Shown here in pieces: positions 22,043-38,778 of a DNA stretch of 41,042 bases. The notes beneath the pieces were generated by a model that had not been told where the DNA came from, ran no database searches, and was given only the letters and a program-made list of their open reading frames with translations. The DNA comes from an uncultured archaeon (GTDB lineage: Archaea; EX4484-52; LFW-46), in the NCBI GenBank assembly GCA_902384675.1, contig CABMCT010000065.1, forward strand, positions 1 to 41,042. Direction: 5' to 3'. The first letter of the stretch is position 1; each line of letters starts with the position of its first letter. The translations under genes and the position numbers were made by a program.

Positions 22043-22426
22043 TCATCGACACGCAGTTTCATTAAGGCAAAGATTGCAATTCTTAAGCAGCGGTATTGCT
22101 TCCCTGTGGAGCTTGCACAGCATCCCTGATTTTCTGATATCGCGGCAGACACTGCACAAAATGCCTGATTCAAACGTGTTTTTTGCCTTTGTAAGCAGTT
22201 TTGCGGCATTCTTTATCGAGCCGAATACAGTTGCATTGCTTTCAAGAAGCTTTGCCTTTTTTCCGCGCAACTCACGCTTGTACTGCGATATTGCCGGCTG
22301 GGTCACTCCCATTTTCTGGGCAGTTTCCGCCTGATTATAATTGAAAGTTTCCATTAATTCCCTGGCAATAAGAGCCCTGACTGTAGGGAAAACTTCCTGT
22401 ACCATAACCTCGCAGAAGGGGCGCAT
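22043..22426 (-). CDS. COG2522-type HTH transcriptional regulator with Cys-rich tail
   Basis: 127 residues. The N-terminal helix-turn-helix is clear (about 28-55): NYNQAETAQKMGVTQPAISQYKRELRGKK. The C-terminal part has paired cysteines: ILCSVCRDIR, MLCKLHRE and NCNLCLNETAC, probably a metal or Fe-S site, as in the archaeal COG2522 family; the MRPFCEVMVQEVFPTVRALIA start is also typical. It could be a redox- or metal-responsive repressor. It lies next to, and divergent from, the TauE/SafE permease with a 95-nt gap, so control of that gene is plausible. Confidence 0.82.
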   Translation of the reverse strand: MRPFCEVMVQEVFPTVRALIARELMETFNYNQAETAQKMGVTQPAISQYKRELRGKKAKLLESNATVFGSIKNAAKLLTKAKNTFESGILCSVCRDIRKSGMLCKLHREAIPLLKNCNLCLNETACR

Positions 22427-22521: not shown

Positions 22522-23247
22522 ATGTATTATTTAGAGCTGCTTGCGCCGATTATTGTTTTGCTCAGCGATATCTCTTCAAGCACAACAGGCATAGGAATCG
22601 GAATAATTTCCACGTCTTATTTTTCCCTGATTTATCCGCCGCGCGATGCTGTTCTGCTTGGGCTGTATGTGTTCACGATTTCCAACATTTTTATACTAGT
22701 CCAGTTCAGGGAGCATATAGACAAAAAATTCGTAATTAACTTTATTCCGTTTACAATCCCCGGCATTATCCTCGGAACAATAATGCTGAAATATCTGGAG
22801 CCGCGCCTTATAAGATTAATTTTCGGCCTGATTCTGTTATCGATTATCGCCCTGGCAATAAATAAGAAACTCAAAATAAACTTTGCAGAAAGAAAAAGTT
22901 CGATGATAGCCTTTGCTTCTATTATCGGCATCACTTCGGCATTCATGAACGCTTCAAGCCCTTTTATGGTGGCGCTATTGCTTTCATCGGGCTATTCAAA
23001 GAAAGAACTGGTATCAACTGCAACTGCGTGCTATTTTATCAACAACCTGATGAAGCTGGCCGCTTTCAGTTACGTTGGCATCTTTTCCGCTGAAATTATG
23101 AAGCTTAGCCTGTACTTCATTCCCTTTATGGCCGCCGGCATCCTGACAGGAAAATTCCTGATAGAAAAAATCCATGCAGATGCGCTAAGAAAGATAATAT
23201 TCTCGCTGCTCTCTACATTCTCTTTTGGGTCGATATTTGGCTATTGA
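22522..23247 (+). CDS. TauE/SafE (TSUP) family permease
   Basis: 241 residues, about eight hydrophobic helices in two halves. The features of the sulfite exporter/anion permease family are present: an N-terminal helix pair with TGIGIGIIS, PGIILGTIMLKYL closing the first half, and the second-half TSAFMNASSPFMVALLLSSGYSKKELVSTATA. It resides in the cytoplasmic membrane and may move a small organosulfur or organic anion; substrate unknown. It is divergent from the COG2522-type regulator and 73 nt before the terpene-synthase-like gene. Confidence 0.8.
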   Translation: MYYLELLAPIIVLLSDISSSTTGIGIGIISTSYFSLIYPPRDAVLLGLYVFTISNIFILVQFREHIDKKFVINFIPFTIPGIILGTIMLKYLEPRLIRLIFGLILLSIIALAINKKLKINFAERKSSMIAFASIIGITSAFMNASSPFMVALLLSSGYSKKELVSTATACYFINNLMKLAAFSYVGIFSAEIMKLSLYFIPFMAAGILTGKFLIEKIHADALRKIIFSLLSTFSFGSIFGY

Positions 23248-23320
23248 CTGCCGCAACAGGCAATCAGGCATATATAGGCGAGACTCTCAATAATATTGTA
23301 CATCCAGAGGAAGTAGTCCG

Positions 23321-24298
23321 ATGAAAAATAATGGAAACAAATTGTGGGAAAATTCATATGAAAAGTTCCAGAACGTGTGCAGCCCGTTGAGAAACCGGAG
23401 CTTATTTGAGTGGCTAAGTAATGCATATCAGTTTCTGTACCTGTCTTCTGTGGACAAACAATATATACCGACGCTGGTCGACCTTAAGACATCGCTATGT
23501 ATTATTGACGTGGCAATAGACGATGCCTGCGATAATGCCGAAATGATTAAAAAAATGGGCGGGGAAGAATTTACTTACGGGATACTTGGGCTGGCATACA
23601 ACATCGACAAGCTGATGAACGACAGGCACCAGAGGGATTTTAAGATTAGCAACGAATACGGGGCTGAATATTATAGCGTATTGCACGATATCATGGAAAA
23701 TACCATAAGCACATTAAAAACGCTTCCAAGGTTTAACGAATTCAAGCACGAGTTTATAATGGCGATGAGGCGGGTTTGCCATTCAATGGAATTTTCATAC
23801 CTGATAAACAAAGGCGAAAGCGTCTATCCGTCATCGCACATTGTCGAGAACAGATCGGCTTCCACAATGGTAACCGTGCATTCCCTGCTTGATTTAATGG
23901 CTTCCCCTACGGTCAATAAAAAAGACATAGGGAAGATGATTCCGTTATTCCATATGGCGGATACTGTGGCTATGCTTGGGAATACACTGAATACCTGGCC
24001 AAGAGAGATACTGGAAAAAGATTACAGCAGCCCTGTCCTGGCACTGGCTCTGGAAAAAGGCCTTGTTGGATTTGACGAATTCTACAATAGCAAGCCGGAG
24101 GAAATAGAAAAAAAACTGTCTCCTCTTTCGGACATTATCGAGGAGCTGATAGATGCTAAATTAAACGAAATGAGAAGCCATATAAGCAACAATAACATAC
24201 AGTCCTTTGATGCAATAAAGTATGTGGAAAATTACCTGAAGATTAAGGAAGCATTCAAGAACCGCGAAAGATATTGGGAAAAACCCTGCATAGCTTAA
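23321..24298 (+). CDS. Class I terpene synthase-like protein
   Basis: 325 residues, all-helical. Two metal-binding motifs of class I terpene cyclases are visible: the aspartate-rich DDACD (67-71) at the end of a helix and an NSE-like N-x3-T-x3-E (Asn221, Thr225, Glu229). Arg178, 43 residues before the NSE motif, sits where the diphosphate-sensing Arg is found. These would bind Mg2+ and the diphosphate of a prenyl substrate to make a cyclic terpene or terpenol. The product cannot be predicted. The stop overlaps, tail to tail in TTAA, that of the V4R gene. A prenyl substrate could come from the mevalonate genes near 36-39 kb. Confidence 0.68.
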   Translation: MKNNGNKLWENSYEKFQNVCSPLRNRSLFEWLSNAYQFLYLSSVDKQYIPTLVDLKTSLCIIDVAIDDACDNAEMIKKMGGEEFTYGILGLAYNIDKLMNDRHQRDFKISNEYGAEYYSVLHDIMENTISTLKTLPRFNEFKHEFIMAMRRVCHSMEFSYLINKGESVYPSSHIVENRSASTMVTVHSLLDLMASPTVNKKDIGKMIPLFHMADTVAMLGNTLNTWPREILEKDYSSPVLALALEKGLVGFDEFYNSKPEEIEKKLSPLSDIIEELIDAKLNEMRSHISNNNIQSFDAIKYVENYLKIKEAFKNRERYWEKPCIA

Positions 24299-24849
24299 TG
24301 CAGCTGCTGTTTTACTTCCTTGTCTTTAAAATCGAATTTATTTCTTGGCTTGGTTATAAATTCGCAGTATGCATCGCCCTTGGATAAACATTTGACTTCT
24401 ATACCATCGATATCCTTGCCAAAGAATACGCATGAAGCTCCTGCGAACCAGCCCCTTTGTATATGGCACACCGCGTGCCCTACCTTACCGGAATGCTGCG
24501 CTATTATGCTGTCATACACCCTGTAGACCATAATGGAGTCCTTGGCATTCCACTCTACAACTTTCATTTTTCCAAGCCCCGCAAGAGTAAAAACCTTCTC
24601 TCCCCATTCCGCCTGCTCTTCGATGGTATTCATTTTGTAAGCCTTAAACAGGCCTTTAATCCAGCTTTTTCCCAATTCCTTTGCCGCCGAATAAAGCTCG
24701 ATGGTCTTGCCTGATTCTTCAATTATTTTCTGCATGGAAAAGAGGTTTTCAAACGGGAATATAACTACATTCTGGCCAAGCAGCTTTATGCTCCCTTCTT
24801 CGAATTCGAGCTGCTTATGCAACATTAGTTTTGATACAACTTCAAACAT
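24295..24849 (-). CDS. V4R (4-vinyl reductase) domain protein
   Basis: 184 residues from the ATG 24849. The C-terminal two thirds show the V4R ligand-binding domain: IIAQHSGKVGHAVCHIQRGWFAG, then EVKCLSKGDAYCEFIT, the GD.xCEF ending typical of the domain shared by BchJ, XylR-type sensors and many archaeal proteins. It probably senses a small hydrophobic or metal-bound ligand. The gene starts 13 nt after the KaiC-like gene, so the pair forms one operon and presumably acts together. Confidence 0.8.
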   Translation of the reverse strand: MFEVVSKLMLHKQLEFEEGSIKLLGQNVVIFPFENLFSMQKIIEESGKTIELYSAAKELGKSWIKGLFKAYKMNTIEEQAEWGEKVFTLAGLGKMKVVEWNAKDSIMVYRVYDSIIAQHSGKVGHAVCHIQRGWFAGASCVFFGKDIDGIEVKCLSKGDAYCEFITKPRNKFDFKDKEVKQQLH

Positions 24850-24862
24850 AAAAGAAATCAAC

Positions 24863-25585
24863 TTATGCCTTAAATTTTTCCAACTCGCTTACAACAATGC
24901 CGTTGTCCGTTATTTCCATAGGATAAACTGCCTTTGCATGATTTGTCCTTCGCATTTTCCTTACCTGTACACTGCCGAATCCCTGGCTGCCTATGCCCAT
25001 GAAATAAAGGACAATAACACCATCTGTCACAAACTCCTCAATGCCATATCTTGAAAGCAGCTTGCTGTCCTCCGTGATTTCAGAAGAAATCATGGCTGTG
25101 CAGTTTGTCGCCTTTATTGTCGAAACAAGTGAATAAAGCCCTTTTCGTATCTTGTAATCATCCTTGATATACATGCCAAAAAGGGATGTCGAATCAATGA
25201 CAACGCGCTTGTAATTATTGGTTATTATCAAATCCTTCAGGCGAAGGTTCACATCAGTAAGCTCGAAGGGGTCATACATCTCTATCCTTAATTGGCCGTT
25301 TTTTTCGTATTTCAAAAAATCCCAGCCGAACTGCAATGCATCCGCCTTTATGTCCTCAGCGCTTTCCTCAAGGGTTATGAAGATGCATTTCTCCCCGTTT
25401 TTAAGGCCTTCATTAAGAAACTGGAGCATCAGCGTTGTTTTTCCTGTCCCTGTCCCGCCGGTAACCAATACGCAGGAGCCTTTCAGAAATCCTCCCTGGA
25501 TTATTTTATCGAGTCCAGAAACGCCTGTAGATACGCGGGAATTATCTGGTAAAGGCGATTTTAATTTCGGGACATGTTTAAACAT
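24863..25585 (-). CDS. KaiC-like RecA-family ATPase
   Basis: 240 residues, a single KaiC domain. VSTGVSGLDKIIQGGFLKGS leads into Walker A GGTGTGKTT (43-51); TLEESAEDI and a Walker B-like KRVVIDSTSLFG follow, with the C-terminal FGSVQVRKMRRTNHAK strand typical of the family. Archaeal single-domain KaiC proteins are thought to be signalling ATPases. It is first in an operon with the V4R protein, and an ATPase with a ligand sensor suggests a small regulatory unit. A TATA-like AATTTATATATAC lies about 25 nt upstream on the minus strand. Confidence 0.88.
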   Translation of the reverse strand: MFKHVPKLKSPLPDNSRVSTGVSGLDKIIQGGFLKGSCVLVTGGTGTGKTTLMLQFLNEGLKNGEKCIFITLEESAEDIKADALQFGWDFLKYEKNGQLRIEMYDPFELTDVNLRLKDLIITNNYKRVVIDSTSLFGMYIKDDYKIRKGLYSLVSTIKATNCTAMISSEITEDSKLLSRYGIEEFVTDGVIVLYFMGIGSQGFGSVQVRKMRRTNHAKAVYPMEITDNGIVVSELEKFKA

Positions 25586-25690: not shown

Positions 25691-26389
25691 TTACGGTTTT
25701 GTCCTGATTATCTTATAGTACGTGACATCGCCTTCCTCGTCAACAATCGCCATCAGCGCGGTTGCCCTGATATTGTGCGAAAGCCTGACATAGCGGGACC
25801 ATTCCTGCGGGGTAAGGGTGTGGTTCTCCGGGTAGGCATGAACATTATACTTGGTATGTTCCTTTGTTTCTTTAGTCCCTGCTTTGTATGGATTAACCCC
25901 CCTATCGTAAACGCGGAAGTGCGTGCCGAATTTGAATCCGGATTTCACAATGTATCCCCTGTTTCTTAAGTCGCGGTAAACCGTAAACTTTTGAGGGAAT
26001 TCCTTGTCCACAGCCATGCATTTTTCATAAAATGCTTGCGCAGCAAGCGGCTTTCCTTCGTAATTCACTTTTATATGCCCGCGGTCAAGCAAAAGCATTG
26101 CTTCCTCAAGGCTTAGCTGAAGGTAGCTTACTTTCTCCTCTTCTACCCATTTGCCGAAATATTTCTCGGAATAAATGCGGTTTGCCTCCTCCTTGTTCCA
26201 GACCACAACCTTGTTTTCCAGAAATTCCGCATTTGCAAGGATTTCCCCGGGCTTAAAAAGAGGCTGGATTTCGGGTTTTGATATTTCAATAGTTTCCGGG
26301 TTTTCAGACTCGTTAAGAATTTCATCAGAATCTTCGATTGCTGAATCTAACTGTTCTTTATCATTCTTGTTTTTATGCTTCTTTGACAT
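25691..26389 (-). CDS. endA: tRNA-splicing endonuclease (EndA-type) lacking the catalytic lysine
   Basis: Family enzyme cuts tRNA introns at bulge-helix-bulge motifs. 232 residues from ATG 26389, preceded by GAGGATGAAT. Residues 1-45 are a charged tail; the domain follows: YRDLRNRGYIVKSGFKFG (138-155), RVYDRG with the catalytic-Tyr position Tyr161, EHTKYNVH with His178, and VRLSHNIRATALMAIVDEEGD. In active relatives the last motif reads HxVRK; here Lys is Ala209 (codon GCA). So two of the triad are seen and Lys is missing. It may need a second subunit or be a structural subunit. The last hairpin of repeat R2 lies in its leader, and two intron-bearing tRNAs are nearby. Confidence 0.85.
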   Translation of the reverse strand: MSKKHKNKNDKEQLDSAIEDSDEILNESENPETIEISKPEIQPLFKPGEILANAEFLENKVVVWNKEEANRIYSEKYFGKWVEEEKVSYLQLSLEEAMLLLDRGHIKVNYEGKPLAAQAFYEKCMAVDKEFPQKFTVYRDLRNRGYIVKSGFKFGTHFRVYDRGVNPYKAGTKETKEHTKYNVHAYPENHTLTPQEWSRYVRLSHNIRATALMAIVDEEGDVTYYKIIRTKP

Positions 26390-26406
26390 ATTCATCCTCT
26401 TCCAGT

Positions 26407-26680
26407 TTTCACCTAATGCATTTGGCGAATGGCGAAAGGTCATTTTTTACTCAATGCTTTTGAACCCAATGCATTGTATGTAGGGTTCAAAATCATGGAA
26501 CTAACGTTCCAAGCTTTTTCGCCCGGTGCATATTGCAAATGGCGAAAAATCCGTTCGTTCTATTCTCGGCTTGCGAACCCATAGCACTCAGTTAATGGTT
26601 CGAAATCCTTTCGTTCGCCTTGTGAGCCATTGAGTGCTTCACTCAAGGCTCTCCAACCCAAATAAGTTGGCGTATGGTTG
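26407..26680 (-). repeat. Composite hairpin repeat R2, between tRNA-Phe and endA
   Basis: Read forward (minus strand) from the tRNA-Phe 3' end: TCTA, arms CAACC/GGTTG; a GAGAGCC region with imperfect second-type loop (GAGCC/GGCTC and TTGAGTG/CACTCAA, 26624-26651); arms CGAACC/GGTTCG (26574-26602); arms TTTTTCGCC/GGCGAAAAA (26515-26549); small stem GGAAC/GTTCC flanked by GCTT and ATGATTT (26497-26510); arms TTTTGAACC/GGTTCAAAA (26458-26492); arms TTTCGCC/GGTGAAA (26407-26437, one mismatch). The five main loops are all 17 nt. It runs into the endA leader. Confidence 0.85.
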
Positions 26681-36492: not shown

Positions 36493-37659
36493 TTATTTTT
36501 TGAACACATGCACCACAGCCGTCGCCCCGGACCCGCCGACATTGTGCGTCATTCCTATTTCAGCGCCCTTAACCTGCCTTGCCCCTGCCTCGCCGCGCAG
36601 CTGCATAACTACTTCGCATGCCTGCTTTATTCCTGTTGCGCCGACCGGGTGCCCGCATGCCTTCAATCCTCCTGAAGTATTGAACGGGATTTTTCCGCCA
36701 AGCTTTGTGTTTCCTTCCTCGATGAATTTTCCGCCTTTTCCTTTTTCCGCAAATCCCAGGTCTTCAACAGCCATGAGCTCTGCGATTGTAAAGCAGTCAT
36801 GCACCTCGACAACATTGATATCTTTTGGCGCAACTCCTGCCTGCTTATAAGCCGCTCTTGATGCCATTATGGTTGCATCAAGGCGCGTAAGTGATTTTCT
36901 CTGCGCGAGCGCCAATGTGTCGGATGCCTGACCGGAGCCGACAATATAAACCGGATTATCAGTGTATTTCTTTGCAATGTCTTCCCTGCACAAAATCAAT
37001 GCAGCCGCGCCGTCAGAAACCGGGGAGCAGTCAAGAAGCGTCAGCGGGTCAGCAACCATTGTGGATTTTAAGACCTGGTCGACAGTTATTTTGTTCTGGA
37101 ACTGCGCAATCGGGTTCATTGATGCATGCTCGTGGTTCTTTACTGAAATCATTGCCAGATGCTCGCGGCGTGTACCGTAATCATGCATGTGCCTGCGCGC
37201 CATCAGCGCATAAAGCCCGGGAAATGTCAAGCCCTGGAAGCCTTCCCATTCCTCGTCTGCGGCGCCCATTAAAGTGGTTGTGACCTGGTCAACCGACATA
37301 TCGGTCATTTTTTCTGCGCCGCCGACAAGAACAACATTATGCTGGCCTGAAAGTATTGAAAGCAATCCCTGCCGGAGTGCCAAGCCGCCTGAAGCGCATG
37401 CTGCCTCAACGCGCGTTGCAGGAATATTCATGCCAATTTGGTCTGCAACTAAAGCGCCTAAATGCTCCTGTCCGGTAAGGCGGCCGGATGCCATGTTTCC
37501 GATATACATTGCATCGATTTCTTTTCCCTCTATTTTCGCGTCGGTTACTGCATTTACCCCTGCCTCGATGGCGAGGTTTCTCAGGCCTTTTTCCCAATGC
37601 TCGCCGAATTTTGTAAGGCCTATTCCTATAACTGCGACACGGAATTTTGAATTATCCAT
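36493..37659 (-). CDS. Acetoacetyl-CoA thiolase (archaeal mevalonate pathway)
   Basis: Condenses two acetyl-CoA to acetoacetyl-CoA. 388 residues. The nucleophile Cys88 is in [13 protein letters not shown]; the C-terminal catalytic region has [20 protein letters not shown] and the closing [14 protein letters not shown], the SCP2-thiolase style without the second bacterial-type Cys. ATG 37659 has GGTGAT 5 nt upstream; a GTG at 37671 is the alternative. It follows HMG-CoA synthase by 12 nt, clearly in one operon. Confidence 0.94.
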
Positions 37660-37671
37660 AAAAATCACCAA

Positions 37672-38778
37672 CTACTGCGCCCCTCCATAATGCAATTTCC
37701 CTTTTATCTTCGCATACTGCGCATATGAAACATATTCCTTGTCTTTGATGTAATCCTCAACTGTCGGTGCTGCGTTTCTTACTTCGTTCAATTTGTCGGT
37801 TGTCCTGAAAACAAACGAATCAGAGCCCGCACCTGAGCCGTATGAAGTGAGGAGTATCAGCTGGTTCGGCTTTGCAACATCAAGAGTTGCGCACAATCCC
37901 AAAATAGATGAGCCCGAATAGGTATTTCCGATCCTTTTTACGACAAAGCCGGGCGCAATCTTCTCAAACGGAATCCCCAGCTTTTTTGCCATTCCTGATG
38001 CGAATTTGCCGTTTGGCATATGGAATACCGCGAAATCAAAATCATTAATTTTATAGCCGGTTCGCTCAAGAAGCCCCTGCGTTGCCGAGAAAACATGCTT
38101 GACGTATGCAGGCTCTCCTGTAAATCGCCCTCCGTGGCTTGGGTACATCGCATGCGACCTTCTCCAGAAATCAGGAGTGTCCGAAGAATATGAATATGTC
38201 GCCTCGATTTGGGCAACTATCTCCCTTTTATCAGAGCCTATGATAAATGCTGCGCCTCCTGCAGCTGCAGAGTATTCTAAAGCATTTCCCGGTGCTCCCT
38301 GTGCAGTATCTGCGCCTATTGCCAGGCCGTATTTAATATAGTTGGACTTGACAAGACCTGCGCACATCTGTATTGCCGCAGTCCCTGCCTTGCATGCAAA
38401 TTCCGTGCTTGCCGCAGTGTAATCATGGCCTGCATTTATTGCATCCCCGACTATTGTTGCAGTGGGCTTTACAGCATAAGGATGGGACTCCGAGCCGACA
38501 TAAATCGCGCCTATTTCTCTTGGGTTGATTTTTGCGCGAAGAAGCGCGTTTTGCGTTGCCGCTACGGAAATTGTGGCAGTATCCTCGTCGATTCCCGGCA
38601 CTGCCTTTTCCTCAATCATAAGCCCGTTCTTTATGTCCTCCCCGTCCTTTCCCCAGACCTCGGCGATTGTTTCGGCTTTTATCCTGCGCTTTGGGATATA
38701 CGCGCCGTAGCCGATGATGCCGACGCCATTGTCAAGGGCTTTTTTTGAATTATTCATAATTAACTCAACTTTGTTCAT
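37672..38778 (-). CDS. Hydroxymethylglutaryl-CoA synthase (archaeal type)
   Basis: Joins acetoacetyl-CoA with acetyl-CoA to HMG-CoA, the second committed step to isoprenoid lipids. 368 residues. Catalytic residues are in place: Glu97 in [12 protein letters not shown], Cys129 in [11 protein letters not shown], His in FHMPNGK. TTTATAAAA ends about 19 nt before ATG 38778, suggesting leaderless expression; ATG 38757 is an internal alternative. First gene of the thiolase/unknown/unknown/DUF35 series. Confidence 0.95.

Follow-up and report, generated by a model that had tools for sequence, protein, structure and literature searches.

A divergent class I terpene-synthase-like gene beside a KaiC-V4R pair in an uncultured archaeon

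Why would a gene resembling a terpene synthase lie beside a KaiC-like ATPase and a V4R-domain protein in an archaeal genome? The question arose from contig CABMCT010000065.1 of an uncultured archaeon (GTDB lineage Archaea; EX4484-52; LFW-46; assembly GCA_902384675.1), whose positions 1 to 41,042 are the whole stretch that was analysed and are referred to here as the window (41,042 nucleotides). We consider that positions 23321-24298, with a probability of about 0.7, encode a divergent class I terpene synthase that makes a terpene from a prenyl diphosphate and is situated in a variable slot beside a KaiC-V4R pair. Homology, metal motifs and fold all uphold the assignment as a terpene synthase.

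Layout of the locus and origin of the contig

The first-pass annotation had proposed a terpene-synthase-like gene in a sensing and small-molecule unit, and the gene layout that it described was recovered. An open reading frame of 325 aa is present at 23321-24298 on the forward strand, tail-to-tail with a V4R gene on the reverse strand (24295-24861, 188 aa; Pfam V4R, E 3e-14), and the stop codons of the two genes both lie in the TTAA at 24295-24298. The KaiC-like ATPase that is the upstream partner of the V4R gene is located at 24863-25585 on the reverse strand (240 aa; Pfam KaiC, E 1.1e-61), and the TauE/SafE permease, at most a candidate member of the proposed unit, is just upstream of the terpene-synthase-like gene (22522-23247, forward strand; Pfam E 3.4e-30). 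Further upstream is a 127-aa HTH regulator (22043-22426, reverse strand), for which Pfam gave only a weak HTH_3 match (1.6e-4), and a tRNA splicing endonuclease (25691-26443, reverse strand) lies on the other side of the KaiC gene. ATATATA at 23270-23276 on the forward strand, some 45 bases ahead of the start codon, may be an archaeal TATA box judging from the bases themselves; the promoter scan was at chance level. An inverted repeat at 24286-24303 spans both stop codons and is terminator-like on both strands, and it is not significant because the scan found 3 such sites where 2.8 were expected by chance. The GC content and third-position GC of the terpene-synthase-like gene match those of most neighbour genes, and a recent transfer is therefore not indicated by composition.

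The archaeal origin of the contig holds from its EF-2, which scores 1031 bits against the archaeal equivalog (cut-off 738), and its HMG-CoA synthase, which is of the archaeal type (equivalog); the assembly yielded no archaeal 16S, and the domain assignment rests on these two proteins in its place. Archaeal membranes are built from isoprenoids. An acetyl-CoA acetyltransferase and the archaeal HMG-CoA synthase, the first two genes of the mevalonate pathway, are located at 36493-38778 on the reverse strand, about 12 kb from the terpene-synthase-like gene. The same genome also contains two polyprenyl synthase genes (PF00348) separate from it, and together with the two mevalonate genes these make a supply of substrate plausible.

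Homologues, metal motifs and predicted fold

Searched alone, the window protein matched Pfam Terpene_syn_C_2 (PF19086) at E 0.0019 and 18.4 bits, under the gathering cut-off of 23.7. Of the 50 aligned members, scanned singly, 35 matched the same profile at E <= 0.01 (best 7e-8), and one haloarchaeal relative exceeded its cut-off with 24.5 bits. Matches to PF19086 across 151 archaeal genomes were all sub-threshold, and none of the members scanned matched NCBIfam at E <= 0.01. Pattern scans from the single protein yielded no relatives, and PDB sequence searches returned Exo70-type chance matches only and nothing with the profile. A Pfam match of the window protein to Herpes_gQ2 (E 7e-4) was dismissed as chance.

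Homologues were found on six haloarchaeal plasmids (E 7e-8 to 3e-12), all annotated as hypothetical. A search with an alignment built from these six identified 58 loci in the species-genome collection that encode relatives, nearly all in Halobacteria, with the addition of a locus labelled Lysobacteraceae (L031), one in Anammoxibacter (L069) and one in a Chloroflexaceae bin (L073). Distant archaeal genomes contributed two further members (G142 and G123). No homologue was found in the 33 other genomes sampled from the window's phylum, and a search of 350 genomes in the phylum of L073 added zero members. Three observations concern individual loci. Candidatus Halobonum tyrrellensis (G400) has three family copies in one genome, two of which share a long branch; the genome of L031, a MAG, is only about 0.7 Mb, which does not fit Lysobacteraceae, and its label may be wrong; and the member at L074 lies within an open frame of 645 aa, which may be a fusion or may reflect an artefact of the reading frame. 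The window protein is about 20-25% identical to its haloarchaeal relatives. On the tree it has a branch of 4.92 changes per column, which makes its placement uncertain, and a changed or lost function is possible given such an extremely long branch.

The two metal motifs that had been named were both present. The aspartate-rich motif DDACD (residues 67-71, 23519-23533) is kept across the family as DDxx[DE], with D67 in 56/59 aligned rows and D or E at position 71 in all 59, and the N221-T225-E229 triad lies in the NSE-type motif NTLNTWPRE (residues 221-229, 23981-24007). D68, N221, T225, R228 and E229 are identical in 59/59 rows, which argues that the motifs are more than chance, and the Trp of the NSE-type motif is likewise identical in all 59. 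The window protein keeps 21 of the 41 columns conserved at >= 90% in the others, and 71 of 298 majority residues overall, and all six metal-motif columns among those 41 are retained (hypergeometric p 0.012). The putative metal-site residues are thus conserved through extreme divergence.

The canonical NSE triad is ND(L,I,V)XSXX(K,R)E (PMC8450962). Compared with this definition, the window protein has the three metal ligands and the K/R-E end (N221, T225, R228, E229), and the second Asp is absent, its place being taken by Thr in the window protein and by Trp in 58/59 rows. Arg178 (23852-23854), which had been proposed as the pyrophosphate sensor, is not supported as a feature of the family: Arg occurs at this position in the window protein alone (of 59 rows, Asp in 35, Gly in 14 and Arg in 1), and it lies 43 residues before N221, not 46, with V175 at -46. 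The sensor Arg is usually 46 residues ahead of the NSE motif (PMC8450962), and it is not strictly defining, because an active sesterterpene synthase without it has been reported (PMC8450962). Another class I anchor, a conserved Asn 8 or 9 residues after the NSE motif (PMC8450962), is absent, with S237 and P238 in the window protein and Ser, Ala or Gly in almost every row; this Asn too is not strictly defining, because an enzyme with Arg there was active (PMC8450962). An RY pair within the last 20 residues was found in 4/59 rows, including that of the window protein (R317-Y318, 24269-24274), in a part of the model of low confidence. With no second NSE Asp and no family-wide sensor Arg, the family is an atypical clade, though probably an active one.

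An AlphaFold2 (AF2) model of the window protein had a mean pLDDT of 89.0 and a pTM of 0.89 with an alignment of 50 rows, and it rests on relatives roughly 20% identical. A model from the single sequence (pLDDT 45.7) was discarded. The leading Foldseek matches in the PDB were tolypothrichol, 10-epi-cubebol, T-muurolol and hydropyrene synthases (probability 1.00, TM about 0.6); the N-prenyltransferase DabA was the second match, and cyclases mostly outranked prenyltransferases. DDACD closes predicted helix 46-71, and the NSE-type motif is inside predicted helix 200-231. A viral fold search gave no significant match (best E 0.017, an Orpheovirus terpenoid synthase). The first-pass annotation had named a different predicted fold as one outcome that would refute its proposal, and the fold predicted is the alpha-helical one of class I terpene synthases, to which the window protein, by this model, belongs.

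Comparisons with known systems further place the protein. With the bacterial class I terpene synthases (PF19086; hydropyrene, T-muurolol and 10-epi-cubebol synthases) it has in common the helical fold, DDxxD/E, the N-x3-T-x2-R-E motif and a length of about 325 aa; it differs from them in an identity of only 9-14% in the structural alignments and in lacking the second NSE Asp, an Arg at -46 and the Asn anchor, and its relatives carry a GNW[LIV]xTWERE signature. The haloarchaeal hypothetical proteins (WP_103992445.1, WP_158059334.1, QCC61006.1) are full-length homologues with all the metal ligands, whereas the window protein is without the Trp after N221 and has Arg178 and the C-terminal RY. The trans-polyprenyl diphosphate synthases (PF00348) share the superfamily fold and the first aspartate-rich motif, and have a second DDxxD where the window protein has the NSE-type motif instead.

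Sensor genes beside the family and the KaiC-V4R slot

To characterize the surroundings of the family, flank genes were predicted with a home-made codon-usage caller and then clustered by BLAST. Genes of Bat/PAS/GAF or kinase type (cluster 0) occupied 37 of 129 adjacent slots and 11 of 244 slots three or four genes away. When one locus per 60%-identity clade was counted, sensor or regulator genes, including HalOD1 and HTH, were in 15/31 adjacent and 1/55 distant slots (p 1.7e-7), a comparison to be read with the richness of Haloarchaea in Bat/PAS genes in mind, which the distant-slot control covers only partly. An adjacent sensor or regulator gene was present in 12 of the 18 clades, and the kinds that recur are Bat/PAS/GAF, HalOD1, histidine kinases, KaiC and FIST. 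Outside Halobacteria, a FIST-domain gene overlaps the start of the member in G123, a PAS histidine kinase neighbours that in G142, a 7TM histidine-kinase region lies 3 bases downstream of that in L031, and a large GAF/PAS kinase neighbours that in L069. At a Halorussus locus (L049), a KaiC-domain gene is tail-to-tail with the terpene-synthase-like gene, and at L062 a 505-aa gene, known by its length and place, is located where L049 has the KaiC-domain gene. Neighbours of a biosynthetic kind were also found, with a cytochrome P450 directly after the member in L073; the member in L031 is preceded by a methyltransferase, and a polyprenyl synthase lies downstream of it. Elsewhere, a V4R-like gene is followed about 144 bases on by a FIST-domain gene (L124, 6422-8461, forward strand, G014:C16).

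Comparative analysis with related genomes showed that the KaiC-V4R locus has a variable slot. In a genome of the same genus (G001) the flanks are conserved (EF-2 91%, HTH 83%, KaiC 69% and tRNA endonuclease 81% identical). The space between HTH and KaiC, which TauE, the terpene-synthase-like gene and V4R take up in the window, is filled in G001 by a flavoprotein resembling the geranylgeranyl-reductase family, a V4R-like protein (36% over 66 aa), a UbiA-family protein and a 364-aa protein; a search for the TauE protein at the corresponding position of G001 did not find it. The 364-aa protein, between KaiC and UbiA (L110, 10988-12082, reverse strand), is without a Pfam match. In a genome of another family (G005), KaiC and a homologue of the window V4R overlap as the same pair, and UbiA is tail-to-tail with V4R, mirroring the place of the terpene-synthase-like gene in the window, and is followed by a flavoprotein. 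The UbiA copies of G001 and G005 do not find each other by tblastn. The combination of KaiC, V4R and isoprenoid-type enzymes in the window, G001 and G005 is suggestive and not proof, because it is based on three genomes. V4R homologues are present in 8/34 genomes of the phylum; a KaiC match is present in 33/34, so that KaiC beside the terpene-synthase-like gene says little alone, and a reading of ORFs placed the KaiC copies of G003 and G007 among unrelated genes. Another KaiC-V4R pair is followed by a 294-aa protein with an LDDLLDEE stretch (L126, 5664-8258, reverse strand, G033:C103). This protein had no Pfam or significant PDB match and was ruled out as a family member by its lack of profile similarity to the terpene-synthase-like family; the contig may be foreign, because G033 is 8% contaminated.

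An independent acquisition, in which the gene landed beside KaiC-V4R and forms no functional unit with it, is compatible with a terpene synthase, and we give it a little under even odds. The near-universal KaiC, the missing homologues in the other sampled genomes of the phylum, the separate strand and the possible promoter of its own all agree with such an event, but the UbiA and flavoprotein genes that fill this slot in G001 and adjoin the same pair in G005, and sensors adjoining the family in unrelated lineages, count against it. By the same evidence the proposed sensing and small-molecule unit gains support, which is real but circumstantial.

Proposed activity and its meaning

If the protein is a terpene synthase, DDACD and N221/T225/E229 would bind a trinuclear Mg2+ cluster, which would hold and ionise the diphosphate of an allylic prenyl diphosphate, perhaps C15 or C20, that the polyprenyl synthases of the cell would supply. 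In the helical cavity the carbocation would be rearranged, presumably with cyclisation, and would leave as a terpene hydrocarbon or alcohol. Because the family has no sensor Arg in the usual position and no second NSE Asp, other basic residues would have to bind the diphosphate, with R228, R137 and, in the window protein, R178 and R317 as candidates.

Two other functions on the same fold were weighed. The protein may be a pseudoenzyme or prenyl-diphosphate-binding sensor that takes up prenyl diphosphates or another ligand through the metal site, signals to the adjacent sensors and makes no terpene. The recurring sensor neighbours, the very long branch and the absence of the sensor Arg, of the second NSE Asp and of the Asn anchor all suit this reading; we regard it as improbable, since the full set of metal ligands is retained despite the divergence and the P450, methyltransferase and polyprenyl synthase beside relatives look biosynthetic. 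About as improbable, or marginally more so, is another chemistry on prenyl diphosphates, by a prenyltransferase, a head-to-head coupling enzyme or a diphosphate lyase of class I fold. The odd NSE variant, with Trp after the Asn in relatives, and the isoprenoid-modifying genes adjoining relatives could be explained in this way, but an NSE-type motif in place of a second DDxxD, and the rank of cyclases mostly above prenyltransferases in Foldseek, though with DabA second, favour a terpene synthase. That the protein is a helical-bundle look-alike with chance motifs, as its weak single-sequence Pfam match beside an equally weak unrelated Herpes_gQ2 match and its low-confidence single-sequence model might suggest, is very unlikely in view of the homologue set, the conservation and the fold search.

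With a terpene synthase as the preferred reading, the most economical account of the neighbourhood, which we infer and give less than even odds, is that the adjacent sensor responds to, or controls, the formation of a small hydrophobic isoprenoid. In the window, V4R might bind the terpene product and KaiC might relay the signal. The broader idea that products of the family are ligands or signals for adjacent V4R-KaiC, FIST, PAS kinase and Bat/HalOD1 proteins, forming sensor-coupled terpenoids of archaea, is rather doubtful; chemical sensing of this kind was not found described in archaea in the literature searched.

The first-pass annotation held that class I terpene cyclases are rarely reported in archaea, and this needs qualifying, as the family is widespread in Halobacteria, though called hypothetical there. 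Terpenoid biosynthesis in archaea has reportedly been described in a preprint by Samusevich et al. (bioRxiv 10.1101/2024.01.29.577750), as its title says, and archaeal terpenoid biosynthesis is what those terpene synthases, known by that title alone, have in common with the present family. Archaeal terpene synthases as such are therefore not claimed here as new, since the two may overlap. Archaeal examples are described as rare in a database paper of 2025, which cites a farnesylgeranyl diphosphate synthase and includes the Samusevich preprint in its list. The atypical NSE motif of the clade and its link to sensor genes appear unreported in the literature searched. A 2023 paper states that, halocin and bacterioruberin apart, confident links between an archaeal gene cluster and a secondary metabolite were lacking (PMC10105419).

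The family is present in dozens of haloarchaeal species and several distant lineages, where it is invisible to NCBIfam and mostly below the Pfam cut-off. With their intact metal motifs and recurrent sensor neighbours, its members are direct targets for work on their products and on the response of the adjacent regulators. Terpenes may thus be made under sensory control in archaea, or may even serve them as signals.
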